A DNA stretch of 64,000 nucleotides from Agarophyton chilense (taxonomy: Eukaryota > Rhodophyta > Florideophyceae > Gracilariales > Gracilariaceae), in contig JARGXX010000092.1 in NCBI GenBank assembly GCA_030374765.1, positions 930,001-994,000 on the forward strand, read 5' to 3'. Below, piece by piece: positions 383 through 60,691 of this stretch. Below the pieces are notes generated by a model. That model saw nothing but the letters and a program-made list of their open reading frames with translations. It did no database searches and was not told the DNA's origin. Every line of letters begins with the position of its first letter. Position 1 is the first letter of the stretch. The translations under genes were made by a program, and so were the position numbers.

Positions 383-2277
383 CTACGGAGAGCCCGAGGA
401 AGGACCCGCCCCACCGTCGGGATTCTGACCCTGATGGTACGCCGAGGCGAAAGCCAACATCTGGCTCACATCCGTCATACCCGGGGGAATCGGAATGCCT
501 GCGTTCACGAGGCCTCGTCGCACACTATCCGCTTGCGGAGTGGCAACCGGCGCCTGCGCAAGGGTGTTCAAACCCCACCCGGGGGAGTAGATGGACCGCC
601 ACCGGATGTATTCGCCGCCGCAGCTGAGGTCGTTCCCACTGGTTGGAAGGGGGCAGATGGCTCCACAGGGAGTACTCCACTGGGAGCTGGAATGTCGTTA
701 TCCAACGCTGGAGCGTCCAGGTCTACTGGAGGCTCGTACTCGTAATCGTCGGTATAAATGAACCCCGTCGGGTGTCCCACCGGCATCGGTCGAGGCGAGT
801 CAATCAGCGCCCGTGCTTGCGCCGCGCTGATGCGAACCCCTTCGAAGGGATTGTAATAGACCCAGTTACCGGAGCCCGGATCGTACCGACCAGGAGACTT
901 TTCTTGCACGGATCCTTCCCCTGCGGGCTGATTTTCCACTGGAACTCGATCCCATTGGGTGTTGTCGATCACGTCCAAGATTGGATACAGGTCCTGCGCG
1001 CTGCTGGCCGAACCCAAAGCTGGGACAAGGTCGATCTGACGCATGATGGTCCGTAGCATCGGAGGAATATACCAGATACGGAAATGGTCATGAGCATCCC
1101 AGAGGAGGTGCGCCGCTACGCGGGCTGCCCACTCGGCTGCAACGAGGGCCCAGTATCCCGAGTTCGGGTCGTGCATCAAACGAGACCCGATATAGTAGAT
1201 GCATGGGGGCAGTTCAGCAAAGCACCCTCGGGGGACCTCGACCTTACTCCACCAAGCTGGAAGTGGCACGAATCGCCCAACCTTCGCCGTGTTATGGATA
1301 CGCTCCAGTTCCACGTGAGGATACAGGACAAGGAACACGAAACGGGAGCGCTAGCGGCGCTCGAAGCGCACGCCTCGATCGAACCCATACTGGGTAAACT
1401 GCCGCTGAAGGTACCTAAATTCAGCCCGAAGGATGGGACGACTCCATTGAAGCATATCTTCTCGGAGAGGAAAACCTGGTCCGCGGAACTCGGCTTTGGG
1501 AAAGGCTGCCAGGTTATCCCCGTAGGAGACCTCACCGAACGTGCGGTAATAGGCGACATCGAACCCGTACTCCGGAGGAACCAGATGGTCAAAGCGTGAC
1601 CTCTCCAATCGCCGGAAGGCCAGAGCCGCCATCGCTGCGCGCGCCTTGTCCAGGCACTCCCCGCGACTGCGGTATAGATACTGAGGCTCTATGGCTACCC
1701 GCGCCCTCCAATCGGGAGAACGTACAACCTCGACAGGTAGGCCACCCGGCAATGAGCCGTCCTCCACGTAGGAGTCGATGAGCTCATCGTCGCGAACCGC
1801 TGTCGGATGGAACCACGGAGCGCGGGAATATATCACCGGATCGGTAAGGGGACTCCACCTTCGAAAGGATTCGTTTTAGATCCAACCTCTGGAGTTTGCT
1901 ACCAAGGGCATCGCATGAGCGGAGTTCCACGCCGCCGCGTTAATGTCCAAATCCTCCTGAGGATGTCGGTTGCTCGCCGAGGCGGAAGGTTCGGTACCTG
2001 ACGGAGCCGCATCCAAACCGGAGAAATATCCACCCTGCTGGGGAGCTTCGTTGTCCGCCGGCGCGGAGGCCGATGGCCCCGAGAGTGGGTTGAGGACGTA
2101 TGGGTTCATTCCCTTGAGAGGGCTGGTTGAGACTGCTGTTGCGAAAAGTTGCTTATCGCCGAAAGTCGGAGGTGTAGAAGAAAGTTGTACCGATGTGCCG
2201 GTTTTGTTGCGATCCTCAGAAGTGGTGAAGGACCCCATTGGGAGAGAAGTATGTATAGTGACCGGAAAGCGAGACAC
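383..2277 (-). pseudogene. Antisense ORF of element E, decayed copy (unknown protein family)
   Basis: On the minus strand one frame is open from 2,277 to 568 except for a TAA at 1,878-1,876 and a TAG at 1,353-1,351. The C-terminal part continues in another frame at 571-383. The product would be about 600 residues: a Pro/Ser/Gly-rich N-terminus, a block starting APWF followed by AVRDDELI, a block with ELPP, YIGS, SGYW and LWDAHDHFRIW, then a WVYYNP / QARAL / PTGFIY block, and a tail with VNAGIPIPPG. All blocks occur in the same order in the antisense ORF of element A (11,816-13,641). I recognise no known domain. The position antisense to the element, just before the 3' LTR, resembles antisense extra ORFs reported in some plant Ty3/gypsy elements, but I see no sequence link to them. 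Confidence 0.7.
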
Positions 2278-2307
2278 CCGCGGCTCGGAATGTTCTTCCT
2301 CGTCTTA

Positions 2308-2319
2308 TGAAGGGGGAGA
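2308..2319 (+). other. Polypurine tract of element E
   Basis: GAAGGGGGAGA lies immediately before the TGTAG that starts the presumed LTR. In LTR retrotransposons this tract primes plus-strand DNA synthesis. Its position next to the LTR start, like the GAGGGGGGTA tract of element A at 13,641-13,651, supports the LTR call. Confidence 0.55.
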
Positions 2320-3259
2320 TGTAGCGCAACGCCCAGTCAGGAGATACTTGAAGATGCAACTCATAGAATGAGGATTGAACCCTCCGAGGGTTATGATTAT
2401 GATCCCCTCTAAGGTGTGCTGAGGTGGCACTGTTTTCCGGTTATATTTCGCCTATAAGGGAAAATTCGGATGGCCCATGGTTGGATTGGCCCCGTGATAC
2501 ACGTGGCTTAATTTTGGCACCGATTTTCGGATATTTGTTAGAACGTTGGACTTTTGGGCCCTGACAGTGGGATCTACACGTGTATGGCCCTGAGCAGGTG
2601 TGCACTACTGTGGAGTTTAGTTAGTGGGCCCTACTTAGGGAGACGAGATCTGACAGTCCGAAGCTCAGAGTAAAGGGTAACCAAGGTTGGTCTTCGTTAC
2701 CTTTAGAGGTTCTTCGTCGCCATCGTTTCGGCCTTACAACCCGGAACGGGCTCTGGTTAGCAACGCCTGCGTAGCGACACGACTCCACTTGGAGAGTGCC
2801 CACGTTTGGGTTCCGTGCAACCACCCCCTTGGGACCGCTCAGACGACCTGCGTGCACGATACCCCGTGGGGGTTCTGCTTACTTGTTGCGTGCTTTTTGT
2901 GTTTCCTTTCGAGGACAGGTTTTCGCCCCTGTATTGGGTTTCTTGTGTTGTTTCGCCCCTTTTCTGGTTCTCGGGTCCGGTGCCTGTTAGTGCCCGACCC
3001 TCGCCCCGTTTTTCCTCTTCGCCGGATTTTCCCCCATTCTTTGGGATACCCATACCCATTCCCGATCCAACGGTTTCTACCCCTCACCTCCGTCGGTACT
3101 GCCGGAATCCCCCGTGGGAGTTACACCCCACACTACGGGTGGAACGGAGGGCTCTGTCTCTGAGTCTGCCTCCCCCAGGGAGCAAGGCTTCGAACACCTT
3201 GAGAGCACTTCCCGTCGCCGGGTTTTGCTCCACAGGCCTCGCTTGTAGGTAATCTAACA
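2320..3259 (+). repeat. 3' LTR of element E (right boundary uncertain)
   Basis: The LTR starts TGTAGCG directly after a polypurine tract. Inside are an ACACGTGGC box near 2,500 and, near 2,665, an AGAGTAAAGG stretch that matches the CCAAGTAAAGG stretch of element A LTRs. The right end is not certain: ATCTAACA at about 3,252-3,259 is the best CA-terminated candidate, but it pairs poorly with the start. The second LTR would lie left of the window, so the boundary cannot be confirmed by comparison. The segment is rich in CCCN...NGGG mini-hairpins, for example at 2,390, 2,630, 2,805, 2,862 and 3,170. Confidence 0.45.
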
Positions 3260-3291
3260 CGCATATGCGTCCACCTTCTGCGGAAAGCGAC

Positions 3292-3310
3292 GTCTTTTCT
3301 CCCCCTTTCT
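3292..3310 (-). other. Candidate polypurine tract of element B
   Basis: On the minus strand this reads as an almost pure purine run with a GGGGGAG core. It lies just downstream of the end of element B's chromodomain frame, where the plus-strand primer should be. No LTR start follows it directly; the B 3' LTR has probably been displaced left of the window by the insertion of element E. Confidence 0.4.
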
Positions 3311-3377
3311 TAGGCTTTAGTACCATGAAGGTCTAAGTTTAGCCGTCTGCAGGCATCGGCTCCTTGCGACGGCGTCA

Positions 3378-3663
3378 TTACCTGATACGGAAGTGTGGGG
3401 CTATTGTGGCTGGGGGTTCGAGGGTGTCCCCTTCTGGGCCCCAGCCGTACCACCTGACGGTGTACTTCAGACCATCATAGGTTTGCATGTGGCCCACCAG
3501 ACAGTCAACGGGTAATTCCTCTGAGGTTTGGTCCTGATCTTTCGGGGGAACGCCACCTTGAGGGTTCATATGCACTGAGTTGGGAGCTTCGTGTGTGGGA
3601 GCCGGGTCAGGAGCTTTTGCTGTTACCGTGTGCAGTTCCATTTCCGTCCCTGTTAGAGAGATG
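3378..3663 (-). pseudogene. 3' end of element B pol: linker and chromodomain, cut by element A
   Basis: The minus-strand frame reads a Pro/Glu-rich linker and then a chromodomain-like fold with YTVRWYGWGPEGDTLEP. The aromatic residues and the WYGW...DTLEP pattern are typical of the C-terminal chromodomain of chromoviruses, which targets integration to modified chromatin. The frame is cut at 3,663 by the element A 5' LTR. It joins in frame to the integrase tail that stops at 14,328 on the other side of A. The segment carries the ACC-N5-GGT signature of element B (3,322-3,332 and 3,555-3,565), which supports its assignment. Confidence 0.8.
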
Positions 3664-4330
3664 TGTAGTATTCTACTATGTCGGGGATTCCGATAGGATG
3701 ATTTTTCGCGAAGTCGCGGTTGGAACTCATAAGTGAGTGATGTCATCAAACTTGTGATATGAAACGGCACACCGCGTAGGATGCCAGGAGGCAGGGTACA
3801 GTTTTGGGAGACGTGGTATCACGAGTGAAGTGGCTTGCAACAGCGCATGTAGTGGCGATCCACGTGGCTGGTTTTACTACCCTTTGTAACTAGATGTCCG
3901 TTAGGGACCATATCCATACAGTGGTTGGGCTAAGTGGCTGACCACTGGGTATTATTTATATATTTATCTGGGCACTAACCCTGGCACACAGTATATAGTG
4001 TACCAGAGGTGAGCGCCGACTCCAAGTAAAGGAGACAACATGGGCATCATGACTATTCTGTTCCTCGCTTAGGATTCCTTAACCGGAGATCCGGACGAGC
4101 TATAATAGATAGTCAGGCCCCAACCACTTCACGAGCCGTCTCGTACCTACGTTCCATCAACGTTTTACAATTGCACTGTTCACCCTCGCTGGCGAGTATT
4201 GGCCTTACACCCCACGTCCAGCTCGCTGGTGTTGTAGCTTTACCACCCCTTTTCCTTCGCCGCAAGCGACCCATCGGCAGTCCGAATGCTGTCGCAGGTG
4301 TCTGCCCTCACCGTTAGATCGGATACTACA
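3664..4330 (+). repeat. 5' LTR of element A
   Basis: This 667-bp repeat starts TGTAGTAT and ends ATACTACA, a perfect 8-bp inverted repeat. It matches 13,652-14,327 throughout. A TATA-like stretch (TATTATTTATATATTTAT) lies near 3,950-3,970 and a CACGTGGC box near 3,872. A related diverged solo copy lies at 60,070-60,691. Confidence 0.95.
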
Positions 4331-4332
4331 AG

Positions 4333-4350
4333 TGGTCTCTCTACTTAGAA
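4333..4350 (+). other. Primer-binding site of element A
   Basis: TGGTCTCTCTACTTAG begins 2 nt after the 5' LTR, where the tRNA primer pairs to start minus-strand DNA synthesis. TGG at the start fits the universal CCA tRNA end. Element B has TGGTCTCCCGATTTAG at the same place, so the two families probably use the same tRNA, which I cannot name. Confidence 0.6.
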
Positions 4351-4659
4351 CCACTGTGGTAAGCTGCATTGAACAATTCGTTCCTGGAACGTGGAATCGA
4401 TATCGATACTTGGAAGAAGTGGAATCACTACAGTTATTGTTTATCGACCCACCTCCGGTAATTGCAGAATTCATCGTGGTTGAACACGTGTTCGAGAAGT
4501 CCAAGACCTCATTTGGTTCGCACCTGGACTCAGGTTTGGTCTAGGATGCCATAGACTCGAAGCCAGTCGAGTACTGGTCGCCCCGGTCCTGCGGGACCAC
4601 CCCCGAATCTGAGGCTCGCCTCATCTGTTGAAGCCGGAAAGCGGCGGTATCGTCAAGCG

Positions 4660-5541
4660 ATGTCGCGCTCACGCTCGGTGAATGATGAACGAGATCTCTC
4701 GGATGTACCGGCCCCTGTGGCAGCGGCAGTCATGCCCACCACAGAAGCCGTAGTTGACCCTGATGTCGTCGGACCTCAAGAAGAGGATGATTTGCGCAGG
4801 GAAGTGCGTCGTCTCAAGTCTGAGTCAAGCGCTTCGCGTGTGCGCATGGTTGGGTTGGAATCGCAGATCGCTGCTCTTATCGCTGATGTCGAACAAATAC
4901 GCAGTGCGCATCAAGCACTCGTTCGTCAAGACGATGGGAAGCAGGTCTCTGCATCAGTGAAAACACTACGTGAGGATTTGAACCATCTACAGGAGCGGTA
5001 CGGGAATACGCCCGATGCGCTACCCGGCTTAACCGTGGCTGTAAAAGAAGTCCTCACTCGAGTTAACCCTTGTTTAGAACACCTGGAGGCGGCAGTTTAT
5101 GCGCAGACTGCTGCTAAACCAGTCTTGCTGGAAGAGGAAGGAGCTCCTTTCAAGGAAGCTCGTTCGAAGAAGTCGAAGTCACGACGTAAGAAGCGGAAGT
5201 CCGCACGTGATTCGAGTGATGAATCGTCAAGTACGGAGGGCTTCAGTTCCAGTACTGATGATTCTGATGATTCAGATACGTCTGATGACGACGACAGTGA
5301 TGATGATCATCGAAGGTTCCGATTTCGGAAGAAGAACACGTCTTCGTGGTTAATGAGAAAAAAAGGCTCACCTTACAGAGGATTGAAGGTGCTCCCGTGC
5401 ACGAATCCGCTTTATCGGAAGGTCCTGAATTACAGGTACTACCGTCTGAAGGTTAAGAGCAAGAAGCGCTCAGGACGCGAAACCGCGAAGGTGAAGGATC
5501 ACATCAAACGATTGAAGATCGGCCTTAATGATTTCATTTGA
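4660..5541 (+). pseudogene. Element A gag, N-terminal part (coiled coil and charged region)
   Basis: The 293-codon frame starts MSRSRS. Residues of about 40-110 look like a coiled coil (heptad-like Leu/Val with many charged residues). A Lys/Arg block follows at about 165-180, then a long Ser/Asp-rich acidic stretch, and a basic segment with NYRYYRL. Element B has the same layout (charged Ser/Asp/Lys region, then a DYRTYRL segment), so this is a gag N-terminus. The frame stops at TGA before the conserved capsid half, which resumes at 5,744 in another frame. Confidence 0.75.
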
Positions 5542-5743
5542 TGGGAAAACCCCCATTCTCGTTATCGAGTTTCTCACTCGATTCGTTGCCGAAGCAGACA
5601 CTCTAGATATGAGTGAACAATAGGCATTTGTGTCTTTACCACAATTTCTGAAGGGTTTTGCTTTAAAGCAATATCGTTCCGTATGCGGATCATTGACAGC
5701 CGATGAAGGCGGCGTTACCTCATGGCCAGAGGCGGTGTAGTAT

Positions 5744-6676
5744 TTGCTGCGCAGCTACGCCACTTCAAACGCGATACGTCAGGCGATCCTGGACCTAAGG
5801 GATGTGACCCAAAAGCCTCAGGAGGGCGAAGCTGAGTACAGCTCAAGGCTTTACAAAGCTTCAGTCCGCTGTGGAAACGTCCACTCGACGGAGGACAAGA
5901 TTACCTTGTACATCGACGGGCTGGACCCGAGCATCAAGTCGTTGGTAGCTTTATATCGAGAGAAGCATGGAAGAGTCTCCTTTTTGGAGTTAGTTCAGTT
6001 TGCGAAAGCTGAAGGAGACGCGGCCAAAGCGCGTGGTAGCCCCCGTCGTTCAGTGGCTTTTGGAACCTCAATGGGTAAGGAGAGGATCTCCGCCAGAGTT
6101 AATCAGCGCAGCAAACTGCTACATCTGGAATCTCCAGTTGACTCGCGAGATTCGTCGTTGGCACCCAAAGGGAGTGACTCGCATGAGGAGGCGGTCCATT
6201 TAATGGAATGTACGGACTCTTCTGTACCTACAGTGGATCTCCCACACTCGGAGTCTCAGGAAGAGGAAGCCCTAATGGCTATGGAGGGCCGTCGCCCTAT
6301 GTACCGTCCCTACACGGTGCCACCACAAGAAGGTTTTAAGAACGGGAAACCCGGATGGATGGATACTCGCACGGCATACCGTTCACAACGTATGTTGACC
6401 AACCGTCGTGACGGTTTGATATGTTATTCATGTTATGGAAAAGACCATTTGAGTGCAGAATGCACGCTTCCTGCAAAGGATCTGAGTCGTATCATGACGA
6501 ATTATGAAGCACTCTCAGAAGAGGAAAGGAGCCGCGTACCGGCGGGCATGTTTTGGAAAGCCAAAAGTTGGTTTTCTCAGACATCAACGCGCCAGACAGA
6601 CAGGCTGGTTGCTCAGAATGTTGAAGTGTTACAATCCGGAACCCCGGTAGGAAGAGGTGCCTTTGAGGGGAATTAG
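5744..6676 (+). pseudogene. Element A gag, capsid C-terminal part and zinc knuckle
   Basis: The frame holds the capsid-like region (CGNVHS, YIDGLDPSIKSLV, LELVQFAKAEGDA) and a degenerate zinc knuckle, CYSCYGKDHLSAEC (C-X2-C-X4-H-X4-C). The same IDGLDP and ELVQFA words occur in the gag of element C, so the two are related families. Gag forms the particle and its knuckle binds element RNA. No ATG opens this frame at the right place, so it is a displaced continuation of the gag at 4,660, separated by at least one frameshift and stops. Confidence 0.8.
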
Positions 6677-6794
6677 CCGGTGCAACCGGAAAACTAAGTG
6701 CGGGAGCCCCTAGTGGTCGGCATCAGTCGATCCCGTAGTGCTGACCAGGTAGAGCTCACCTCCCTGCTCCCGCGCTTGGAAGCCCAAGATTCTC

Positions 6795-7085
6795 TTGCGG
6801 CCTCCAAAGTTTCCACCGTACGGAATCAATCCGCCGGACGGAAAGCGAGTACAGTTTGACTGTGAGTTACATCGTCCTTGGAGACGTTATACTTGTCGGT
6901 CAAAACGGGAAAGTTACCTCATGGTAGTGTCTAAAAGAAACTATAAGGTCTATGCCGACATCGGCTCTGACAGGAATCTGTTATCTCGTCGATTGACTAT
7001 CCTGGACACAGGTGCTGGTCCGAACTTTATACGGGAATCGGAGCTCGCTCCTGCTGACTTAGAACGTATTCGATACGGTCCTTAA
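6795..7085 (+). pseudogene. Element A aspartic protease domain
   Basis: The retropepsin active-site motif is present as ILDTGAGPNFI, with the catalytic Asp intact. This enzyme cuts the Gag-Pol polyprotein. The frame ends at a TAA (7,083-7,085) and the same frame reopens at once into the next ORF, so a single stop separates protease from the reverse transcriptase frame. Confidence 0.8.
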
Positions 7086-7115
7086 CCGGACATCTGGGAT
7101 GCCAACAAAAATGCT

Positions 7116-9419
7116 GTGAAGATACTGGGAACAATTCGACTCGTGGTGCGTTTGGGACGCTTTGTAGTCCTAGTCGACTTCATCGTCTGTAAGACGTTAG
7201 CTGCGCCAGTGGTACTGGGATGTGATTATTGCGACAAGTTTGTCGAAGCCATTCGCCCGCGAAGAAAACTAGCGGAACTAGATGATGGATCACTGGTACT
7301 AATTGTTCGCAAGCCAATGCGTCGTTGCTTTGAAGCACCTCCACTTCCACCATCTATGGAATACTGTAAATCCCGAGGACGTGTCTCGCCGAGTATTCGA
7401 GTAGCGAAGAGTTCTATGCTGAAGGCGCAAACCCAAACTTGGGTTCAAGTAAGAACAGAACGACACGGACTCGTGGTAATTCAACCGAATACTCGGATGT
7501 ACGAATCCCGTGGATTGCTAGTCGCTAACGGCATTGTTCAAGTTGATCCTGGTAGCCCCTTTTGGATACTAGTGAGTAATTTCACCGATAACGATTATCA
7601 GATACCGAAGAATCAGGTTGTTGCAACAGCTTTGCCTCATCCCACAGTGGTGGTCCCTACTCATATTTCTACTGCAGAAGTATTGGGATTAACCCATGTC
7701 GGTGACACAGACGAAGAACTGCAAACTCCGTCTGGAGATCAATTGCAAACGGCAAAGGATCCAGAGAGCCTGGTCGATGAGCTATACTTAGCACATGTCT
7801 CGGAACACTACAGAACGAAGATCAGGTCTATGCTGAAGAAGTATACATCAATGTGGAGTGGAAAACTAGGAGAGATCTCCGCTACGGAACACCACATTGA
7901 TTTGTTTTCAGGGTCACGACCCATCTCCCAACCACCCTACAGAGCGGGACCGCGAACTGGCCAAATCGAGGAGGAGAATGTCAGCAAAATGCTGGAAGAA
8001 GGAGTAATCGAAGCAGCTCAATCTGCTTGGGCCTTACCAGTGGTGCTGCTTCTAAAACCTCATGGTTCTTTACGATTCTGTATCGATTATCGAAAACTGA
8101 ACGCAGTTACAGTTCGAGATACATACCCGTTGCCTCGAATGGACGAATGTATTGACAGCTTAGGAGAAGCGAACGTGTTCACCGCGTTGGACGCCAACTC
8201 TGGCTATTGGCAGGTGCCTGTAGCGGAAGAAGACCAAGATAAAACCGCATTTGCGTGTCACGCCGGTCTCTACCGTTTCAAAAGGATTTCCTTTGGCTTA
8301 ACGAAGGCACTGGCTACTTTCCAGCGTACTCTGGACATCTTGCTCTCAAGATACAAGTGGAAGACTGGTTTAGTCTATTTGGGCGATGTGATCATCTTTT
8401 CCCAGGATGTGGAAAGCCATTTACCGCATTTTGAGGAGATTCTCAAAGCACTACAGAGCGCAGATATCACCTTGAAGTTCAAGAAATGCGAATGGTTCGC
8501 TGGCACCGTCCGGAACTTAGGACACGTGATCAAACCGGGACAGCTTTCCATTCAAGAGACACAAACAGCGGCTCTCCGCGAAGTACAACCTCCGTCGACA
8601 CAGAAGCAATTGCGTTCTTTCCTCGGCTTGTGCAACGTCTACCGAGGATTCGTGCGGCGATACTCGCATATAGCGGCACCGCTCGACGCAAAGCTGCGTA
8701 AAGGACAACCAGTACAGCTGGAACAATTCAGACAGGCTGAAGTGGAAGCGTTTGACACGCTGAAGACAAAGATTATTACAGCCCCAGTCTTGGCGCTGCC
8801 CATCCCCAACCTTCCATACTCAGTGGATACCGACTCTAGCGAATACCAAGTAGGGTGTGCCCTTTTTCAAACACACCCTGATGGTGAACGCAAACCCATT
8901 GGTTACTGGTTAAGATCGCTGAACGCAGCTGAGAAGAAGTATCCAGTTTCAGAAAAGGAATGCATTGCAGTCGTTTGGGCTCTAACCACATTGCGACCCT
9001 ATCTCCAAGGAGAACGTTTTACCGTCAACACGGATCATTCGTATCTACGATGGTTACTGTCCATTACGGACCCGTCTGGTCGTCTCCCACGATGGCGCTT
9101 ACGCCTTTCTGAATTCGATTTCGAAGTGAATTATAAGAAGGGATTGGCCAATGTCCAAGCTGACGCGCTATCGCTACTCAAAACACTGGGCGAAACCCAA
9201 GGCGAAATCGATGAAGAGATACCTTGCTTCTACATGGAGACCCATTCACCATCTTTTGAAGAAGAGGAACAAGAGACCCTTGATGATTATTCGGATGCAG
9301 ACCCGTTCCTTGCATTAGCAGACACTGACCCTTTAGTTCAACTCGAGCGAATCTCGTGCACTGAGCTCCTCAATGAGCAACATAAAAAGTTTTTGTGCGT
9401 CAATACGCTCTCGTCTTAA
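7116..9419 (+). pseudogene. Element A reverse transcriptase and RNase H
   Basis: Residues from about 260 show a standard Ty3/gypsy reverse transcriptase (FCIDYRKLNAVTVRDTYPLP, VFTALDANSGYWQVPV, FKRISFGLTKALATFQR) followed by RNase H (YSVDTDSSEYQVGCALFQ, EKECIAVVWAL, VNTDHSYLRWLL). The catalytic YxDD box reads YLGD, so one of the paired metal-binding aspartates is lost. The usual NAP of the FGLTNAPATFQR box reads KAL. The frame ends at 9,419 next to a run of seven G residues. Integrase continues in another frame, so a frameshift lies in about 9,380-9,427. Confidence 0.9.
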
Positions 9420-11193
9420 CGGGGGGGAGGAGCTCCCCTTTTCACTCGATTTACGAGGAATAGTGTTGAGACATGTCGAAAAGCATGATCAAATCGTGAT
9501 TCCACACGTGTTGAAGAGTCGAGTACTCCATCTGGCACACTACAGCAGGCTGTCTGGTCATCCAGGAGGAACGAAGTTGTTCATGACTCTAAGAAGAGAT
9601 TTTTACTGGCCTACTTTGGCAATGGACTGCCATGCTACAGTGAGGTTGTGTACAACATGTGCGAAGAATCGCGTGAAGCTTTACAGGAAGCGGAAACCGA
9701 TGACGTTATTCCAGGCGAAAGCGCCTTTACAATACGTCAGTATCGACATCCTAGGGGAATTGATTCGCTCAAGGCGAGGTTATCGCTACCTATTGGTAAT
9801 CACCAACCGCTTCTCGAAGCTAGTGTGGACTGTGCAGCTCAAGCGGATAACCGCAACCATAATCGCACAGGCGTTTATCAAAGACTGGGTATTTATATAC
9901 GGACCACCAAAAGTTCTGTTATCAGATAATGGGAAGCAATTCGTTGCGAAGTTCTTTCAGAATGTTTGCCGCATTATGGGCATTCGAAACGTGTTTACCA
10001 CGACCTATCATCCGCAATGCAACGGTCAGGTGGAGCGTTTCAACCGCACGCTGATAGCAGCATTACGACACCACATCGCGTACCACCTGAAAGAATGGGA
10101 CATGTTCAAAGATACTGTGTGCTACGCGTACAATACGCAAGTGCATACCTCTACAAAGACGGCACCGTTCGACCTCGTGCTCTCACGTAACCCTCCGGCT
10201 TTACCGGTTGCGCTCGACGACGAGACAGAATTGGACGGGCCGACCCCGGCTAAGTACCATCTGAAATGGGAGAATGACCTGAAGGCCAGAGCGGAAGAAG
10301 CCGCTAAGGAGTTATCAAAGACGCAAGCTTGCTATAAGCGAAACTATGACGCCAGAAGGCGAAGAGTAAATCCGGCAATCCGAGTAGGAGGTCACGTCTT
10401 CGTACGAATCGAAAGACCGGACAAACAGGAAGAATCTCGTCATAAGTTGTTGCCGATAGCGGCTGGACCCTTCAAAGAGGTGGACCTTGATGAAGAAACA
10501 GTGGTCATCAAGACAGGCGAGGAAGTTGAACATGTATCGCGCGATCGTGTTGAAGTCGCGCCTGACCCGCAAGTGGAAGTCCAGGTATCTGGTAGAACTA
10601 AGGAGGCAAGTGCGACGGAACGTAAAAGCAAAAGCCCAAGTGACTCTGGGGAGAGTGAACCGCCACCAATGGCTCGAGCGGAGGAGGAAGCTACTGATCT
10701 ACCACCGCCGGCGGTTGCGTACGCCAATCACGGACAGCTTCCAAAATATCTGGATATGCCCCGTGGCACGCGCACACCCGTAAGTACAGAAGTGGAACCT
10801 GAAAGTAGGAAAGATGTTTTGGAATTTGGCCCCAAGGACTTGGAAACGAGTGCACGCGAAAACACGCCTTTGCCGCTTCAGGCTGAACCGTCAGTTGAAG
10901 CGCCACTCGCTGTTCCGCAGATATCGGCTCCCATCCCTCGTGGGCAGGAAGAAGAAGAGGTATCGCCTCCTGTCGTGGTGCAAGCACCATCATCCACCGA
11001 ACAGCGGTCAGAATCGGATAAACCGAAGGAAGTTCATCCACGAATGGAATTGAGAAGTAGCAAGAAGTACGCTTCTAGGGAACCTGGAAAACAGGATAGC
11101 TCTTTGTCTGAGAAAGGTTCTCAAGGAACGGGTACACTGCCCCTGCGGGCAGAACCACAGTTAGTCGACGAGCGAACGCTTAGCGACGCTTAG
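9373..11193 (+). pseudogene. Element A integrase
   Basis: The zinc-binding H-H-C-C domain (HYSRLSGHPGG ... CTTCAKN) is followed by the catalytic core with SIDILG, LLSDNGKQF and NGQVERFNRTL, giving the D, D and E of the DDE triad. A GPF motif (AGPFKEVDL) follows. The last roughly 200 residues are Pro/Glu/Ser rich. The enzyme inserts element DNA. The frame stops at a lone TAG (11,191-11,193), after which the same frame runs on into the chromodomain. Confidence 0.9.
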
Positions 11194-11514
11194 ACTGCTA
11201 ACACAGAAAAGCTTGGGTCAGCCCTAAGGCATTTCAAACCTGGTAACAGGAGTCTCGCGCCAATAGCGAAAGCATTGGGAAACGCTCAGGAATATGGTAT
11301 GGATCGCATATGTGAACATGGCGAGCATGAAGATACTAGAGAATTACTGTATCGAGTCCGTTGGTACGGTTTTCCTCCGGAATTGGATACGTGGGAACCT
11401 ATAGCTCATATCCCCCGTTCGCAACTCGTGCGATATCATCGACGCATGCGATTACCACTCTCCAGGGAGATCGACTCCTCGATAGTCGGGCTCATGGGCA
11501 CATCCCATTTCTAA
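11194..11514 (+). pseudogene. Element A chromodomain, in frame after one TAG
   Basis: The frame of the integrase continues past the TAG at 11,191-11,193 without another stop to 11,514. It holds a chromodomain-like segment (LLYRVRWYGFPPELDTWEP followed by HIPRSQLVRYHRR). Chromodomains at the end of integrase guide chromoviruses to particular chromatin. The single stop could be a mutation or a readthrough codon. In element B the corresponding region is open from integrase tail into chromodomain, which favours mutation here. Confidence 0.8.
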
Positions 11515-11539
11515 GTATGGGCTACAAAGGTAGTAAAAA

Positions 11540-11760
11540 CTCGAAAGGCGAGAAGAAAACAAGAAGTCATGTGGAAGAAACGTGAAGACACGCAAGAAAA
11601 GGACATTTACTGATTATCAGCTAGGACAAACTCGAGAAGCGAGAAGAAGGATTGAAGAACTCGAGAAGCGAGAAGAAGAAGTTAAGAACTCGAGAAGCGA
11701 GAAGAGATGAAGACTAGAAGATAAGAAGGGAACGCGAAGACAAGAAGTCACCGGAGTTTT
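11540..11760 (+). repeat. Purine-rich spacer of element A with 29-bp hairpin repeats
   Basis: CTCGAGAAGCGAG occurs at 11,631, 11,660 and 11,689, exactly 29 bp apart, with a variant CTCGAAAGGCGAG at 11,540. Each copy is a CTCG/CGAG hairpin with a 5-nt loop. The surrounding sequence is nearly all purine on the plus strand. The spacer lies between the pol and the end of the antisense ORF, as in element E. Confidence 0.8.
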
Positions 11761-11815
11761 ATTGGTATCAAGATACTACCGCAAGGGTGTTGAATAGGAG
11801 TCTTTTCTAGGATCA

Positions 11816-13641
11816 TCAAAGAGACGTGGAAGCACGCAGGTTCGCAAGAAGCTGTGCGCCATCACCCTCAACTTGGTCCACGGGAAAGCCCGCATCTAAG
11901 AGGAACTGCCTCAGCGGATCCAAGCCTGGATCTTCGACCGGCACTGCACTCAGTTGTTGGGTAAACCCATGAAGGTACTCTTGAGCAACTCCCGCCGCTG
12001 CGGATTGATCGACGGAAGTCGCTACGCCTGCCAGCTCTGGCTCGTCCTCGTGACCGAGTTCAGCCTCAGCTCCCGGCGCTTCCTCATACGGTTCCTCTCC
12101 GTTCTCGGATGGAGTAGCATCGTACACGTATCCAGTGAGCTGGTTCGGTGGCATGTCACGCGGGTTCTCCCGAAGAAAGCGAGCCTGCTCGGAGGTGATC
12201 AACTGGCGCGTCCAGGGGTCGTACCAAACGAAATCTCCAGCACTTGCTGTTCGTCCAGGAGAATGGTCGTGGTGTCTTGCACGGGTTCCGCGAGCGGATT
12301 GATCAGGTGGCACTCCAGACCAATCGACAATGTCGATCAAATCCACAAGATGGAGGAAGTCGGCATGGTTCGCACGGGATCCCAGGACAAGGGAAAGATC
12401 GAGTTCTCTCGCTCGCGCTGTGGGCGACATTTACCAAACTCTAAAGGTATCATAAGCATCCCACAGGAAGAAGACGGCCATCTTGGCGATAAACTCGGTA
12501 TAAACCACTGTCCAATATCCCGAGAACGGGTCGTTAACCAACGCGGACCCGATGTAGGAGATCGCCGGTGGGAGCTCCACAGGGCAACCACAAGGACTCT
12601 CGATCGCCGCCCAATGCTCCGGAATACCGAAGTAGCGCCCGAAGAGCGCGTTCCGCCGGATGCGGTCAATCTCGATCATTTGATACGGCACCAAATAGCC
12701 CAAACGTGATCGAGTACGACGTTCCCAACGGGGACAGTCCCAATAGGGAATGTCACTCTTTCGAAGGAAGCGGGACTCCGCACGGAGAAGAGGTTGCTGA
12801 AAGCAGAGAGCTGCATCACGCACACCGCGCCAACCGCTAACATCGACTTCAACGAGTGTCTCGATATACGAGTAACCTTCACCGTCGGTACGGGCTTTCC
12901 AGGTATCTAGTTCCCAGTCCTGCCGGAGGAGAACCGTACTGATGAATCGGTGAAGAAGCTGGTAAATCAGCTTGTTGAACCGCGTACGGGCTTCGGACAA
13001 GGTTTCCGTTGAATATCGCGCAATCGCGTTGCCTGGAAAAGCAATATGGCTCGCCCAGTCGTCGCTATAAATCGTGAGTCCAGAATACCGTCAGGGAAGT
13101 ACCCACCGTGTACATACTGTTGAATCAACGCGTCATCGCGGATAGCAACTGGATCAAACCAGGGTGCTTGCGCGAAAAGTTCAACGTTGTCGAGAGGATC
13201 TCGTCCATAGAAATCCGCAGGGTGCGGGTAGCTCCGCTGAACACGACGAGAGGGAGCTCGAATCACACCCGCAGAGGCGACGTAAGCCGCGTTCGGCTTC
13301 GGAGCCACGGTTGGCTGAGGTAACGGTACAGACCGGAATCCGGTGTACGGTGTGGGGAACGGACGGTATGGACCGAGTTGAGCAGTAGGCTGCGACGCAG
13401 AACCAGCAGTGTTGGGCGGAGCCCAAGAAGGTACATCCTCAGAGGAGGGCTGAAACGGGTTGGACCCGGAGTTCGGATTCATCGCGAGAGATCGAGCTGT
13501 AGAGCGGTGAGGAACAGAATGCTGTTGGGAACTGTAAGAGTTGGTCGTGCGGCGAGGAATTCGTGATGACGATGAGTACCCGGAACACCGGTCCGACTGC
13601 GTACAAACGCTTCTTGCATCTTCCCATGGTTTGCGCTTAAC
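11816..13641 (-). pseudogene. Antisense ORF of element A (same unknown family as in element E)
   Basis: The minus strand encodes about 600 residues in three pieces. The N-terminal piece (to 12,967) has the block QAPWFDPVAIRDDALI. The middle piece (13,000-12,431) has VELPPAISYIGSAL, SGYWTVV and FFLWDAYDTFRVW. The C-terminal piece (12,430-11,816) has FVWYDPWT, SEQARFL, LTGYVYDA and LLDAGFPVDQ. A frameshift near 12,970-13,000 and one TAA at 12,433-12,431 break it; element E reads TAT (Tyr) at that codon. The first methionine downstream of the LTR is at 13,482, but the frame stays open into the LTR, so the true start could lie there. No known family was recognised; the function is unknown. Confidence 0.75.
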
Positions 13642-13651
13642 GAGGGGGGTA
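13641..13651 (+). other. Polypurine tract of element A
   Basis: CGAGGGGGGTA abuts the 3' LTR start and is the expected plus-strand primer site. Confidence 0.75.
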
Positions 13652-14327
13652 TGTAGTATTTTACTATGTCGGGGAATCCGATAGGATGATTTTTCGCGAA
13701 GTCGCGGTTGGAACTCATAAGTGAGTGATGTCATCATACTTGTCATATTAAACGGCACACCGCGTAGGATGCCAGGAGGCAGGGTACAGTTTTGGGACAC
13801 GTGGTATCACGAGTGAAGTGGCTTGCAACGGCGCATGTAGTGGCGATCCACGTGGCTGGTTTTACTACCCTTTGTAGCTAGACGTCCATTAGAGACCATA
13901 CTCATACAGTTGTTTGGCTAAGTGGCTGACCACTGGGTATTATTTATATATTTATTTCGGCACTCACCCTGGCACACAGTATATAGTGTACCAGAGGTGA
14001 GCGCCGACTCCAAGTAAAGGAGACAACATGGGCATCATGACTATTCTGTTCCTCGCTTAGGATTCCTTAACCGGAGATCCGGACGAGCTATAATAGATAG
14101 TCAGCCCCCAACCACTTCACGAGCCGTCTCGTACCTACGTCCCATCAACTTTTTACAGTTGCACTGTTCACCCTCGCTGGCTAGTAGTGGCCTTACACCC
14201 CACTTCCAGCTCGCTGGTGTTGTAGCTCTACCACCCCTTTTCCTTCGCCGCAAGCGACCCATCGGCAGTCCGAATGCTGTCTCAGGTGTCTCAGGTGTCT
14301 GCTCTCTCCGTTAGAGCAGATACTACA
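13652..14327 (+). repeat. 3' LTR of element A
   Basis: This 676-bp copy matches the 5' LTR throughout. It is 9 bp longer because TCAGGTGTC is tandemly duplicated near 14,282-14,300. It ends ATACTACA at 14,327. Confidence 0.95.
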
Positions 14328-14964
14328 GGATGTAATCCCGATCATCCCGTTGGAAGTTATCATTCAACTCAATTGGGGTGGGGTCCTCCGAGGGTCGAGT
14401 GCGCAGAGCTACAGCTCTGGGCTCACGGGCTGAGGTGCCTGCCTTAATGAGATGTTGAACCGATACAGGTGCTACCGTGATACGGTCAATTGATATCGTA
14501 TTCAGTATTCTATCTTTTTCAACCGTAACAGTGTGGTCTGATGCGTTCAATACCTTATAAGGTCCCACTGATTTGGGTAGAAGCATCGAATTGATATCTC
14601 TACCAATAGCTTCATCGTCCACTTCATAACCCAGTCGTGGTCTTTTACCTGAAGGTGGGTTGTCTATGTAAACATCTAGTCCCGAAGATATCGAGACCAC
14701 TTTGGTTACCCTACGGTCGTAGTCGGCCTTGTACCGCTTCTGGGCTGCAGTGAGGCGGCTCTATGCATGTTTGAGAGCCCTCCTCAACCTCACAAGGATA
14801 TTTCGCTTGACCTGGGCAGGGGTCAGTGCGGTAGCTGCAGTGCTGGTGGTATGATCTCCCTGCACTACAATACCTGGGGGGTGTCGCGAAAGAACCAAAT
14901 CAAAGGGAGTGGTCGGCGTTGAGCGGTGTACCTGAAGGTTATAGGAGTAGGTGAGAGGTTGCAC
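14328..14964 (-). pseudogene. Element B integrase C-terminal region
   Basis: Minus-strand frame 14,964-14,761 continues the integrase (NLQVHRSTPTTPFDLVLSR). After one TAG the same frame resumes at 14,700 with a GPY-like SVGPYKVLN segment and an Arg/Val-rich stretch, and is cut by element A at 14,327. It continues in frame at 3,663. Confidence 0.75.
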
Positions 14965-14974
14965 CAGCTCATCC

Positions 14975-15881
14975 CACCCAGTTGGTGCTCTTCCGTAAAG
15001 TGTCGTAGCCTTGATACCAATGTGTGGTTAAAGCGCTCGACCTGTCCGTTCGTCTGCGGGTGGTAGGCAGTAGTGAAATAGTGCTTGATACCCAAGAGGT
15101 TACAGACTGCTTCGAAGAAGATCGATGCCAGGTTTGAACCATTATCGGTAAGTAGGTACATTGGGGCACCATACGGGTAGACCCAATTGTTGAGGAACGC
15201 GATCGCCAGCGTTGTTGACTTCGTATCCTGTAAAGGTATCGCTCTCGTGAGCTTCGAGAACCTGTCGGTGATCACTAGAACGTGTTGATACCCATTTCTG
15301 GTCTTGGGAAGTGGTCCTAGAAGGTCTATCGCAATAAACTCCAGCCGACCGACTGCTGGAAAGATCTTGAGATACTTTCGATGCTTTCGAATACGACCGC
15401 TGGTACGAACACAGGATTCGCATTGACCTACAAAGGTATATATATCATGGGCCATATGAGGCCAATAGAACTGTTGCCTCAAGGTGTAATACATCTTGAT
15501 GGCACCCGGGTGTCCCGATAGTCGCGGGTAGTGCGCGAGATACAAGACTCTCGGGTGCAGCGCCTTCGGAACCACCTTTTGAGGGCTACCATCTAAGGTT
15601 GACCTTCTCACGATGTACCCATTGTGGTCTACATCGAATGGTGATCCTTTGAAACCAATTTGGTCAGCCAGGGTTCTGCAGTACGCATCTTGGGCCTGTT
15701 CTCGTAGAAACTCCTCTCGGGTTACGGGCATGACGTTCGTTTCCTCCCGGGTCAGTATCTGCATTGCCATGTCGGTGTTCTGAAAGGCACCTTCTTCAGG
15801 TATGTCCCAACATCCTTCTAGGTGTTCGCCGGTACCATTTTGGTTTGATGACACCAAAAAGAAAGGGATATCATTGTCCAC
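14975..15881 (-). pseudogene. Element B integrase, zinc-binding domain and catalytic core
   Basis: The H-H-C-C domain (HYPRLSGHPGA ... CESCVRTSG) and the core with AIDLLGPL, ITDRFSKL, LLTDNGSNL and NGQVERFNHTL are all present, so the DDE residues are kept, unlike the decayed reverse transcriptase of element A. The frame shifts near 14,975-14,990, as the neighbouring frame carries the matching continuation. Upstream it is separated by one stop from the RNase H frame. Confidence 0.88.
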
Positions 15882-15905
15882 AGGTTCTGTCTCTAACCCT
15901 GGTGT

Positions 15906-23723: not shown

Positions 23724-26700
23724 ATGGCGCGGAAAAGGAGGAAGCGAAGATTTGCACGGATTCCCTTGCTTGAACATGAAGGTGCCAGTGCCCAACAACT
23801 CATGAAAGAGGCTCGTGAAGATTCTCAAGTCCAGCAAGAAAGGAGAAACATGCACGAAAAAGCTCAAGCTGCAAACATCAAGTTTCAGGAAGACGCAGAG
23901 CGCGTTACAGAACTGTATATTTCAAGAGTTCCAAGAGCCATGTCTGCAGCAAGTCTGGTCCGACACCTTCTCGTTGCTCTTTGTCGCAAAGGATACATGA
24001 CCGTCACCCAAGCGAATACCTGCCTCCATGATTTTGGCAGCGCAAAAAAAAAGCCCGTTCTACGATGCGAGATTTGCCCAGAAAATCCACGATATAACAA
24101 CTCAATAGCGTTTGTTTTGGTAGCCAGCAAGAACATTGCCGAACTGCTTGTTCGGTGTTCTCCCTATGCGGTGAATAGGATCGAGAGGATAATAATTTCA
24201 ATGAGCAGGCGTTCAGCCACGCCAACCGCGTCAGCGTGGCATCCCGCCAGAGACCCAGGCAGCTCCAGATGGAATATATTCGGCGTGCGAACCGGTGAAA
24301 GAATCGATGCCTCGTCGTTTTGTGCCTTCTGGTCTTCACCCCAAAATGTGAACTTGATCGATAGTAACGTACAGATCGATAGTCACGTACAATTGAGTCC
24401 AGTCGCAGGCAGTCTCATCATCACAATTCCTCGAAAAATGCCAGTGCTCAAGGGCAACAACCAACTGGTCAACATGGGCCAAACACAGACAAATGATTTT
24501 GATCACGCTTTAGGAATGCTGCGATTCGAGATTCCGTTTCGTTCCATCTGTGATGCACCTCGTGCAGTAATCAGCAGACAAGATGATGATCGTCACGCAA
24601 TTGTTTTCTCAATATCGCGCCCCCCCCTTCTATTTCGGTCGTGTGAAGAGTCCACTCAAGTTTTACCTCGTTTTTGGGATTTTCTTGGAGGATCCGAAAG
24701 GGGTGCGAAATGGGTGCGAACGGTGGACCCCACCAAAAGCTTTGCCTTCTCGCGAACGAGGGCAATTCGAATCGAGTTCAGTCGCGATGATATGCGGTGC
24801 TTCTACGAGAAGCTCCAGCACTTGTACCTTACGAAAATGGCTCTGCCCGTGCTTGTGATTAATAAGATTGTACGAGAGAAACATCCCCCTGATCAACATT
24901 CCATTTTTCGGATAGCAGCGAACACATTTCACATTTCTTTCTCAGTGCGGTATGCAGTTGCTTGCATCCTTTCGTTAGGTACTGTGCGGATTGCTGAAGT
25001 TGATTCCGAATTCTGGCACGCTGTCAATAAAATGACCGAAGATGAAGCGCTATCTGTTTTGGAATGTATGCTGTATCGTCTGTCAAGCGATGAGGCCTAT
25101 ACCAGTGTGAACGAACTACTACCCGTCCTAACGAACACCATGGAGTTGTTAAATATTGTGGGCACGCGACAGTCCAGGAGTGAACACTCATCAGACTGTG
25201 GTGAATATGACAGCGATGGGACTGAGGATACAGAAGAGATCATCATGGAACGATACGTAGATGAATTACGACTGGATGAGCTGAGCATTGATGACACCCA
25301 TCAGCAGGGTAAACCATCTTCTATCCACACATCCACAACAGTACAGCCTTCGAAAAAGAAAAGGCCTTCAAAACAGCAAACGCACATCAGAAAGGTCATT
25401 GTCACACCAACACGAAAAATCGCTCTCAAAGCTGAACCCGACTTGCTTAATCGGGTACTGCGAAAATTTTCAGAACACAAGCATCGATTCATTCGCGTTG
25501 CGTTCACAGATGAAGACGGTAGATCAGTAGGCTATTCTGGATCAGAGGACTTACTCTGCAGAATTCGGGCCGCGCTTCGGAATGGAATTCGTGTCGCAGG
25601 GGAGCGGTTCGTATTTTTAGCTTTCTCTAATTCACAACTCCGGGACCACTCTGCTTGGATGTACAATGAAACGCCGAACGCCACATCAATTCCTCCCTCA
25701 GCTGATGATATTCGCGCTTGGATGGGCAACTTTTCTGAGATCCGGATTCCAGGCAAGTATGTGAGCTCTTTCTCTGTCTCATTGGTAGTCATTTATGTCG
25801 CAAACTCTAACTCTCCACTCCTCTTTGCATCTTTCGTAGGTACGCTGCTCGTCAAGGTCAAGTATTCAGTTCTTCGCTTGGGACTCTTGAGCTCGGACCG
25901 GATCAAGAAGAAGTTGTGAGTGATATAGTGGATTCAAGGGGAGAGCATTTGTTTTCAGATGGTATTGGGATAGTGTCTCCAAACCTCGCAAAGGCCATGA
26001 CAAAAAAACTTCGGATCGAGCGGCTTATAGCAATGCCTTCCGCTTTTCAGATTCGCTACGGGGGAGCAAAAGGGATGTTAGCTGTATGGGATAGCACTAT
26101 TCTGCCCCGACGCCATGGCGTAGAGGTGTCTCTTCGCCCAAGTATGAAGAAGTTTAAATCAAGTCACAGAGTTTTAGAAGTAGTCAGCATCGCAAAGTGC
26201 CTGCCACTTTTTCTCAACCGTCAGATAATCATGGTTCTGTCCGGTCTTGGCGTGCCTGACATGCCATTCGAGAAGTTGCAGGAAACTTTCCTTAAGCGGC
26301 TCGATATGGTCATGGAAAAAGATGGGAAAATTACCGCTCTTCAAGTCTTGAATGCTAGTGGATGCGGTGCAAATCCAGACAGGAAGCTGAAATCGAATTC
26401 TCCGATGATGAGTGCTGTTGACCTGTTTCTTGCTGGACTTAATTGTCACAATTGTGAGTATCTATTCAACATTATGAATGCTTTCAGACAACGAATGATC
26501 AGCGGCGTTCGCCATCGGGCTCGGATTCCCCTTGATAGAAGACAGGGAATCTGTGCAATTGGTGTACTTGATGAACTTGGAGTGTTGAAGCCTGGAGAGA
26601 TCTTTTGTCAGTTTAGGGACCCTTCGTATGGCAAAGTGGTTGCGACAGGACAGGTTACTGTTGGCAGAAGCCCTTGCCTTCATCCAGGGGATATCCAACC

Positions 26701-27778
26701 AGCAAATGCCGTTCAATGCGAATCATTGCGTCACATGGTTGATGTGATTGTGTTTCCGAGAACGGGCCGCAGGCCCTTGCCATCTATGCTGGGTGGGGGG
26801 GATCTTGATGGTGACATATTCTTCTGTATTTTTGAGAAGACCATTGCATATCCGAGAAGTCAGCCCTATCCTGCGATGGTTCACAAATCGCCCGATCCTC
26901 AAGAGCTTGATCATGATGTGCAAGTTTCTGATGTTGCCGACTTTTTCGTGCAGTACATACGCAATGACAAGTTAGGGCTGATAGCGAACGCCCATTTGGT
27001 TCATGCGGACAAAGAACAAGCCGGGATCTTTTCGGAAAAGTGCTTGGATCTTGCAATTTTACATTCAACAGCTGTTGACTTCCCCAAAACCGGAATACCT
27101 GCACTAGTCCCCCCAGATCTAGCTCTTAGGAATCAGAAAAACCAGTACCCCGACTTCATGATGAAACACAAAAAAATATCCTACAAGTCCACGAAGATTC
27201 TCGGAAAACTATTCCGTGCTTGCAACGCAAGCAGAAGTGAAAGTAAGAAAGAATTGGTGACTTTTCCCAATGAGAGTTCCTACGCTGTCGTTAAAATTTT
27301 TAGTTGTTTATCGGATGACGCTGAGCTTGAAAGGGAGTCAGATTCGCATTGTAACAGTTACAACTATGAAATCAAACGACTAATGGATCACTACGGGGTG
27401 CAGAGCGAGGGTGAGCTTGTGTCTGGCCAAGTTTTATCATTTACTTCCCGTATCACAAACGTGCAATGGCAGAGAGAATATATGGATCAGTTGATGCGAA
27501 TGAATAGAGAAACTAACGAGTTGCGGTCTCAATTTCGAGAGCTGTTCTTTGAAGGACTAGGACAACGACCGGGCAGCAAATACAACATTGATACGATCAC
27601 CAAGGCCAGCGCGTGGTATAATGCATGTGAGAAGCAAGCTGCCATGGATCGAAAACAAGGAAGAAAGGCATTTCTAAGTTTTCCATGGGTTGTATCTGAT
27701 GTATTGCTTCACTGGTTTAGAGCCTATTTTTGCTTCGTACAAGGCAAAAAAAGCGGCAATGATGAGAAATTAGACTAA
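23724..27778 (+). CDS. RNA-dependent RNA polymerase of the RNA-silencing type (RDR/QDE-1/RRF family)
   Basis: Two exons (23,724-25,756 and 25,840-27,778) give about 1,323 residues, in the usual range for this family. The enzyme copies single-stranded RNA into double-stranded RNA, feeding small-RNA silencing. The catalytic DLDGD is at 26,801-26,815 (about residues 999-1003) inside GGGDLDGDIFF. Splicing creates the family motif GKYAARQGQVFSSS at the junction, and GIGIVSP follows. Before splicing the two halves look like two overlapping ORFs. The ATG at 23,724 opens a very basic N-terminus (MARKRRKRRF). It lies about 2.5 kb from a block of nested retrotransposons, which are common targets of such pathways. 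The domain N-terminal to the catalytic part is not recognised in detail. The family assignment is strong; the pathway role is inferred. Confidence 0.93.
25757..25839 (+). other. Intron of the RNA polymerase gene (83 nt)
   Basis: It begins GTATGTGAG, ends TTTCGTAG and is pyrimidine rich near the 3' side. Removing it splits one Lys codon, restores the frame and joins the conserved GK and YAARQGQ words of the family. Confidence 0.9.
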
Positions 27779-54002: not shown

Positions 54003-54652
54003 GCTCTGGGTCGAACCGCCTGCGCGGATATACAACTCCTTACGGAGGGATTTCCCGCGGTGCACGGCTTCCCAACCCCCTTGGACGTTCAAGCAGCCTT
54101 CGTGTGTTGGGTATCTATTCCCACTTTCGTGGTTCCGCCCGTGTATACAGTTTGCTACACCCGGTAGTGCCGGCTATTCCCGAGTCCCCTCTTGCGACTC
54201 GTGGTCAACCTCGCCCTCTTGCCTTTGTTCCCATTTTCCTTCCCTTTTCCTCCCCTTCATTGGGCAATTCCCGCTCTTGCGGCTCGCACTGACACCTCTC
54301 GTGCTCGCCACTCTCGTGGGTTTTACCTCCTCAGAGGATACGCAAGCACCGCTTCGGCGGATATTCTCGGCTTCTTTCAGCCTCCCTGCGCCCGTCGCGA
54401 CGGTTTGGCTCCGGCTTACACCCGGCATTGCGCGCCGATCCCTGGGAGGGCTCTACCGCGCCAGTTACCTCGTGAGAGGAAGATCCGGACGTCTTCGTAG
54501 GTTTTCCCCCTTGGGGGCATTGTCCTACAAATTGGTCTCCCGACTTATAAGTCAAGACCGCTTGTGTCCTCTCTGAGGTTTTTTTCCGTTTAAAGGGTTT
54601 TCTCCGGTCTCACCGGTTTGCTTTCTATTCTTCTGTCGAGACGGTGTGGCCA

Positions 54653-60069: not shown

Positions 60070-60691
60070 TTTAGTATTCTGCAATATCGGAATGCCGATG
60101 GAAGATTTTTTTGGGTAAGTATATTGATACTCATAAGTGAGTGCAACGCCTAGGATGAAGTTATGAGGCGGCACCCTGCAGATGGTCCGTAAGGGGGTAT
60201 GTTACACGTGGGATCTCGGTCTTCCACGGAGCATCCGATTCGACCGTTTCCAGGGAAATACTAGATTTACAACGGGGCATATAGACGGTGGCCACGTGGC
60301 ATTCAGGCCTACTTTTCGTAGGCGGACGCCCATTTAGAGCTAGTTATCCAGTACTGTAGGGAGTTTATTCGGCTATCCAAGTTTATATGTAGACATTATT
60401 ATGTGCGGCGCTCACCCCTGTGCACCGTACTTAAGGAGCAGAGGGAAGCGCAGACTCCAAAGTAAATGAGACAACAAACGGGTTCACAACGCATTTGTTT
60501 CTTGTTCAGGATTCCTTAACCGCAGATCCGGACAAGCTACAACAAGTAGCTGTCCGTTCCAAAGTACCAACCACCCTCATTGGCGAGTGGGGCCTCACAA
60601 CACCCATTCTAGCTCGCTGGTTTTGTGCTCTACCACATCTTCTCCTTAGCGGTAGGCACTCATTCGGCCTCTCCGTAGAGCGGATACTACA
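60070..60691 (+). repeat. Solo LTR related to element A, with perfect target duplication
   Basis: It aligns with the element A LTR through TAGTATTCT at the left end, CTCATAAGTGAGTG, CACGTGGC, GACTCCAA(A)GTAAA, AGGATTCCTTAACCG and GGATACTACA at the right end. The first bases read TTTAG rather than TGTAG. It is flanked by GTTCG at 60,065-60,069 and GTTCG at 60,692-60,696, a perfect 5-bp target duplication. No internal coding region is present, so it arose by LTR-LTR recombination. Confidence 0.88.

Follow-up and report, generated by a model that had tools for sequence, protein, structure and literature searches.

A 64,000-nucleotide stretch of the genome of the red alga Agarophyton chilense (contig JARGXX010000092.1, positions 930,001 to 994,000; hereafter the window, at its full length) contains two Ty3/gypsy chromoviruses, termed here elements A and E, each with a long minus-strand open reading frame (ORF) between the end of pol and the 3' long terminal repeat (LTR). 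Comparison of its copies shows this antisense frame to have the character of a protein-coding gene, which keeps its position and its antisense orientation across three divergent element families and is open in many copies. We consider it likely that these frames all represent a single old accessory gene carried by red-algal chromoviruses, which would act in trans for the element. More tentatively, we propose that the gene may specify a dedicated and anciently conserved chromovirus protein, which would be expressed antisense from the 3' LTR and would counter host silencing or regulate the element in trans.

The antisense gene and its copies

The presence of the minus-strand frame in both elements had been claimed in a sequence-only reading of the window, and it is borne out by the ORF list and tblastn. 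In element A the gene occupies 383..2109 of the minus strand (ATG at 2107-2109, stop codon at 383-385) and in element E 11816..13482 of the minus strand (ATG at 13480-13482, stop codon at 11816-11818); its start lies about 210 bases from the 3' LTR in A and about 170 bases in E, and in both elements the gene is situated between the chromodomain/pol end and the LTR. Both belong to the class termed aORF-3R or eORF-3'R, which comprises frames antisense to gag-pol that are located between pol and the 3' LTR and reach a length of 250 codons or more. Both window copies are broken, as that reading had also stated: the A gene is interrupted by two in-frame stops, one at 1876-1878 and the other at 1351-1353, and by one frameshift between approximately 583 and 610, and the E gene an in-frame stop at 12431-12433 and one frameshift between approximately 13072 and 13084, all on the minus strand. 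In tblastn searches each aligns with an intact copy in two pieces, at 94% and 89% identity in the case of A and at 90% and 91% in the case of E.

The genome searched comprises 79.8 Mb in 135 contigs, and pieces of the A and E genes match at least 147 and at least 150 places in it, respectively (from 1526 and 1430 first-look candidates). Each family thereby carries the antisense ORF in many copies, and not as a single transduction. Among the best-matching 29 copies of each that were fetched, 15 of A (575 codons) and 6 of E (560 codons) can be read without interruption over the whole frame, beginning at a conserved M(N/D)P, although four of the six open E copies (L045-L048) scored identically and may represent one duplicated segment. 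The ATG is kept in 26 of the 29 A copies and in 28 of the 29 E copies. The place L065 led to a third family, F, whose gene is downstream of one of the reverse transcriptase (RT) matches listed; 58 of the antisense-gene matches listed are F-like, and the one open F copy that was read, L075, has 558 codons from its first ATG. When a Gracilariopsis chorda homologue (P0002, described below) served as the query, 54 of 77 listed places, out of 1823 candidates, had no stop in the aligned part, as counted by eye. Intact copies, the absence of which the sequence-only reading had set down as fatal to a gene, are hence found in A, E and F alike; these open copies, the third family and two homologues from outside the genome, at least one of them red-algal, extend the evidence beyond what that reading had drawn on.

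The position of the gene relative to pol is nearly uniform. Linkage was counted as pairs among the matches listed, where an unpaired place carries no evidence of absence. In A, an antisense-gene match is listed within 10 kb of 80 of the 150 RT places listed. In 79 of these pairs the gene lies downstream of the RT in antisense orientation, mostly at a distance of 4.0-4.2 kb; the remaining pair is same-strand, and one antisense pair, 9.9 kb apart, is probably not one element. In E, a match within 12 kb accompanies 38 of the 58 pol places listed, and all 38 are downstream and antisense, mostly at about 3.05 kb. For F we used the first 58 of 150 gene matches and the first 52 of 150 protease matches, both lists being cut by eye at the point of falling identity, towards copies of the E type; 23 of the 52 protease places are paired, 22 with the gene downstream and antisense and one on the same strand. 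Nine A-type pairs stand at 2.5-2.8 kb from the RT instead of 4.0-4.2 kb, which suggests a shorter variant of the element.

Eight of the 70 RT places with no listed A gene were read, and seven have the gene or its remnants: L067, L069 and L070 bear a full-length A-type gene (interrupted in L069 and L070), it is partly deleted in L065 and L066, remnants alone persist in L063 and L064, and L068 is without it. Hence, a place missing from the list does not mean that the gene is missing. A comparison of 59 of the 70 places, listed by hand, with the E matches gave one same-strand E match within 10 kb and was not used. In L063 and L064 the gene is mostly deleted while LTR and RT are retained, and the deletion junctions of the two are present at 1 and 2 genome places, respectively (with at most one mismatch), so these two deleted forms did not spread. 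Their failure to spread fits a gene that helps the element.

Conservation of the protein and signatures of selection

The proteins of intact A and E copies align over 469 residues with 36% identity (BLASTP E-value 4e-83), while no alignment of the two genes was listed at the nucleotide level when the window was compared with itself (blastn, E-value <=1e-5, more than 60 bases). Over the aligned parts, the F protein from L075 has 49% identity with the E protein and 38% with the A protein. The proportions of differences at codon positions 1, 2 and 3 are 0.52, 0.46 and 0.73 between A and E, 0.49, 0.42 and 0.72 between A and F, and 0.38, 0.31 and 0.63 between E and F, and where the two proteins have the same residue, 90 of 119, 74 of 99 and 85 of 137 four-fold sites differ, respectively. 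Between families, then, third positions are saturated and positions 1 and 2 are not, and the equal rates at all codon positions that had been named as evidence against a gene are not observed. These counts follow the protein alignment, which somewhat favours positions 1 and 2; the E-value of the A-E match is independent of that. The pol of the A-type copy L062 is 52-59% identical to that of E, which indicates that the antisense protein evolves faster than pol.

Within A, the variants shared among the 29 copies (minor bases in at least three copies) fall 11, 8 and 26 times at codon positions 1, 2 and 3 (p=0.00065). Their nonsynonymous to synonymous (N/S) ratio is 0.42 of expectation (15 N to 16 S, p=0.012), both p-values assuming independent sites. 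The singletons, in turn, are spread 120, 118 and 139 over the three positions with an N/S of 0.87 of expectation. Judged from these sequences, this is the pattern of a gene under purifying selection during element replication and near-neutral after insertion. Shared variation is also lower within the frame than around it, at 2.3% against 3.3% and 7.4% in the flanks of A, and at 10.6% against 40.9% and 19.8% in those of E.

This conservation bears directly on the alternative that the antisense RNA matters and not the protein, whereby double-stranded RNA from transcription against pol would feed or tune host silencing and the open frame would be a by-product. A silencing pathway is made plausible by a host RNA-dependent RNA polymerase gene at 25811-27778 of the window (PF05183, E-value 2e-133), which stands alongside several retroelements, and passages of PMC7264820 mention a proposed double-stranded RNA role for antisense ORFs of plant elements. 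An RNA-only role, however, would not preserve amino acids, whereas here the conservation is at the protein level, with saturated third positions and kept start codons. We therefore regard this alternative as unlikely, if the best placed of the rivals.

The protein, its relatives and its probable role

Common to the five proteins compared (A, E, F, P0001 and P0002) is a core of about 370 residues in which tryptophan, tyrosine and arginine are abundant, set between variable tails rich in proline, alanine and serine, the whole product being about 560-580 residues long. The core blocks include APWF, LRAEF, PRGC, SGYW and SPGR, some of them not invariant. The blocks first described from the two broken copies recur, in the same order, in the intact copies and in both outside homologues. 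Lysine is scarce, at 0.7-0.9% in four proteins and 1.4% in F, but AAR codons are rare in the other two frames of the antisense strand too, so that base composition explains part of the scarcity.

The two homologues came from a word-based search of a protein database of 5.8 billion sequences, run with a single sequence and with a profile; each time, scoring covered the 7997 candidates that had the most words in common with the query. They are P0001 (ENA, 581 residues, 49% identity) and P0002 (Gracilariopsis chorda BWQ96_10156, 565 residues, 41% identity). The profile and structure searches that the sequence-only reading had called for agree with its failure to recognize a family: Pfam, NCBIfam and PHROGs yielded no family over the cut-off or at an E-value <=0.1, sequences in the PDB gave two chance-level matches only (E-values 1.2 and 2.1), and none of the 23 pattern matches from a scan of IMG/VR was confirmed. 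One of the five proteins matched the Pfam family APH_6_hur below the cut-off (E-value 0.12), which was taken as chance.

As to where such a gene might have come from, capture of a host gene is possible, and passages of PMC7264820 record capture by retroelements. A stronger version, in which an ancestral element took up a host gene on a single occasion and its descendants have carried it without benefit to themselves, would accord with the lack of any similarity found to other retroelement proteins; we think it slightly less probable still than a role of the RNA, as no host-gene relative appeared in the word-based search, Pfam, NCBIfam or the PDB, the copies adjoin pol wherever listed matches overlap, and the shared A variants bear the mark of selection.

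A structural or envelope-like particle protein would suit the location, since retroviruses have env between pol and the 3' LTR. The orientation speaks against it: retroviral env is recognized as a sense gene with a transmembrane segment, whereas this gene is antisense, no clear transmembrane segment was found (the best 19-residue hydropathy is 0.93-1.33 in four proteins and a borderline 1.63 in F), and PDB sequences, PHROGs and IMG/VR offered no match. We accordingly hold this alternative to be improbable. That the frame arose by chance and never had a function could be argued from the broken state of both window copies and from the complementary-strand frames that overlap the gene, yet it is refuted by the A-E match (E-value 4e-83) and the codon positions, together with the conservation across families and in outside homologues and the long open frames in three families, and deserves virtually no credence.

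We thus return to an accessory gene acting for the element. Leftward transcription would start from a promoter in or beside the 3' LTR and would give an mRNA with a short leader, of about 170-210 bases as measured to the LTR edge, ahead of the M(N/D)P start of A and E. The soluble product would then act in trans and help the element to persist, and it is more likely to regulate the element or to counter silencing than to serve as an envelope protein or an enzyme. Such a trans-acting role appears the likeliest from the analogy to Grande, Retand and HBZ, which are taken up below.

Several observations weigh against this proposal. No strong basic nuclear signal was found in A or E, and P0001 and P0002 have one isolated RRR each (four proteins checked). 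AlphaFold2 gave no confident fold, the mean predicted local distance difference test (pLDDT) score being 40 for a model of P0001 with P0002 and window pieces and 50 for a second model of a 260-residue A piece with P0001, P0002 and E pieces; these low-confidence models suggest mainly helices, and Foldseek found no match to them in the PDB at an E-value <=0.001. With neither a confident fold nor a structural match, the term regulator rests on analogy. The 29 E copies have no third-position excess among their shared variants (71, 54 and 70 at positions 1, 2 and 3, p=0.25), and their N/S is 0.76 for shared variants and 1.09 for singletons; perhaps the E copies are older and noisier. Selection on E is consequently argued from the differences between families and from a frame less variable than its flanks, and the past selection suggested in the sequence-only reading is borne out between families and in the shared variants of A, but not in those of E. 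Moreover, the deletions in L063 and L064 could simply postdate insertion. Finally, two homologues stand against 4042 pol matches at an E-value <=1e-10, the best of the 120 listed being 67% identical; either the gene is limited to few lineages, or relatives that share no exact 5-residue word were missed.

The host elements, their surroundings and known antisense genes

Element A is a Ty3/gypsy chromovirus by the order of RT, RNase H and integrase, the chromodomain after the integrase, the TG...CA LTRs and the polypurine tract. The three pol domains, of Ty3/gypsy type and in that order, are over the Pfam cut-off in A itself (L061) and in the A-type copy L062. The chromodomain was seen by translation alone in A itself; in the A-type copies L066 (36.4 bits) and L067 (34.0 bits) it follows pol in a separate frame and exceeds the PF00385 cut-off of 25.1. 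The window holds only the 3' part of A, including the polypurine tract (2309..2319, plus strand, by sequence) immediately 5' of the 3' LTR (2320..3234, plus strand, by blastn), while the bulk of the element lies to the left, its 5' LTR at G000:C92:921436-922349 being 97.8% identical to the 3' LTR by blastn. In L062 (5023-5169), the interval from pol to the chromodomain frame contains identical stretches of 47 bases, spaced 100 bases apart, which recall the tandem arrays of Retand.

Element E, which spans 3664-14327, is a Ty3/gypsy chromovirus on the same grounds of domain order, chromodomain, LTRs and polypurine tract. Comparison of the window with itself by blastn delimits its LTRs (3664..4330 and 13652..14327, plus strand), which are 94.1% identical, and AGATG (3659-3663) and GGATG (14328-14332) at its flanks, alike in four of five bases, are taken as the target duplication. 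The plus strand encodes, in succession, a first open frame that is gag-like by position and has no Pfam family over the cut-off (4555..5541), gag (5741..6676; Retrotrans_gag at an E-value of 0.00044, below the cut-off, and a weak zinc knuckle at 0.19), the RT and RNase H of pol (7086..9419; PF00078, PF17917 and PF17919), the integrase (9337..11193; PF17921 and PF00665) and the chromodomain (11194..11511; PF00385 at 33.6 bits). A polypurine-rich stretch, recognized by sequence, precedes the 3' LTR (13642..13651, plus strand). In both elements the 5' LTR (of A in L061, from 1350; of E in the window, from 4331) is directly followed by AGTGGTCTC and then ACTTAGAA, a primer-binding-like stretch common to the two families.

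Element E was probably inserted into another chromovirus, whose parts now flank it on the minus strand: to its left is a chromodomain-like stretch (3378-3575, minus strand; PF00385 at an E-value of 0.0023, below the cut-off) and to its right an integrase frame (14865-15905, minus strand), which apparently was split from the same element. Farther along, at 60406-60650, after a gag-like frame (54551-55945), there are stretches that resemble parts of the E LTR at 75-79% identity, near which tblastn (E-value <=1e-3) found no relative of the antisense gene. Going by Pfam family, the window also has what we take to be genes for a PAM68-like photosynthesis factor and an Alb3/Oxa1-like protein. Elsewhere in the assembly, contig C39 bears phycobilisome genes (14 of the 15 matches listed), and the beta-phycocyanin is closest to PDB chain 2bv8_B, from Gracilaria, as befits a red-algal host.

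Plant chromoviruses are known under names such as CRM, Tekay, Reina and Galadriel. Like these, A and E have RT, RNase H and integrase followed by a chromodomain. Tcn1 is named in passages of PMC6317226. The plant survey reported there ties extra ORFs to the OTA (non-chromovirus) and SIRE groups, unlike A and E, and describes the proteins of these ORFs as highly heterogeneous. Antisense ORFs of the same place and orientation as ours are described for Grande, RIRE2 and Retand in parts of PMC11963269 and PMC7264820, which in some cases mention similar sequences across several species, give a nuclear location for the Grande product and call the function of such ORFs unknown. Retand differs in that it belongs to a non-chromovirus lineage described in flowering plants, with PF04195 as its main antisense domain (PMC11963269), whereas here the hosts are red-algal chromoviruses, three families of which carry members of a single protein family. 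None of the five proteins matches PF04195 (Transposase_28) at an E-value <=10. Boty of Botrytis cinerea, whose host is of a different kingdom, offers in brtn an antisense extra gene of a Gypsy element outside plants, according to portions of PMC8365987 and PMC7264820, and is likened here by description and not by sequence. HBZ of human T-lymphotropic virus 1 (HTLV-1) is likewise an accessory protein encoded antisense in an LTR element (in a passage of PMC11963269), a likeness of mechanism and not of sequence, and a passage of PMC7264820 places the antisense promoter of HTLV within the 3' LTR.

Given antisense ORFs in the same position in plants and fungi, the arrangement itself is not new, and the novelty claimed in the sequence-only reading, which had thought of plant lineages alone, has to be narrowed to the protein family and the host lineage. 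None of the literature titles searched, a search outside which supplements and most subscription papers lay, pointed to a red-algal chromovirus with such a gene. From the sequences compared, the protein family, the host lineage and the conservation across element families look new as far as we have seen.

If our proposal is true, this retrotransposon accessory gene would belong to a host lineage apart from plants, fungi and animals, and its protein to a family without known relatives. One protein has been kept antisense and at the same position through at least three chromovirus families of a single genome, with signs of selection and with homologues elsewhere. This makes it an unusually clean case for asking what role antisense retrotransposon genes play, in a host that has an RNA-dependent RNA polymerase gene.

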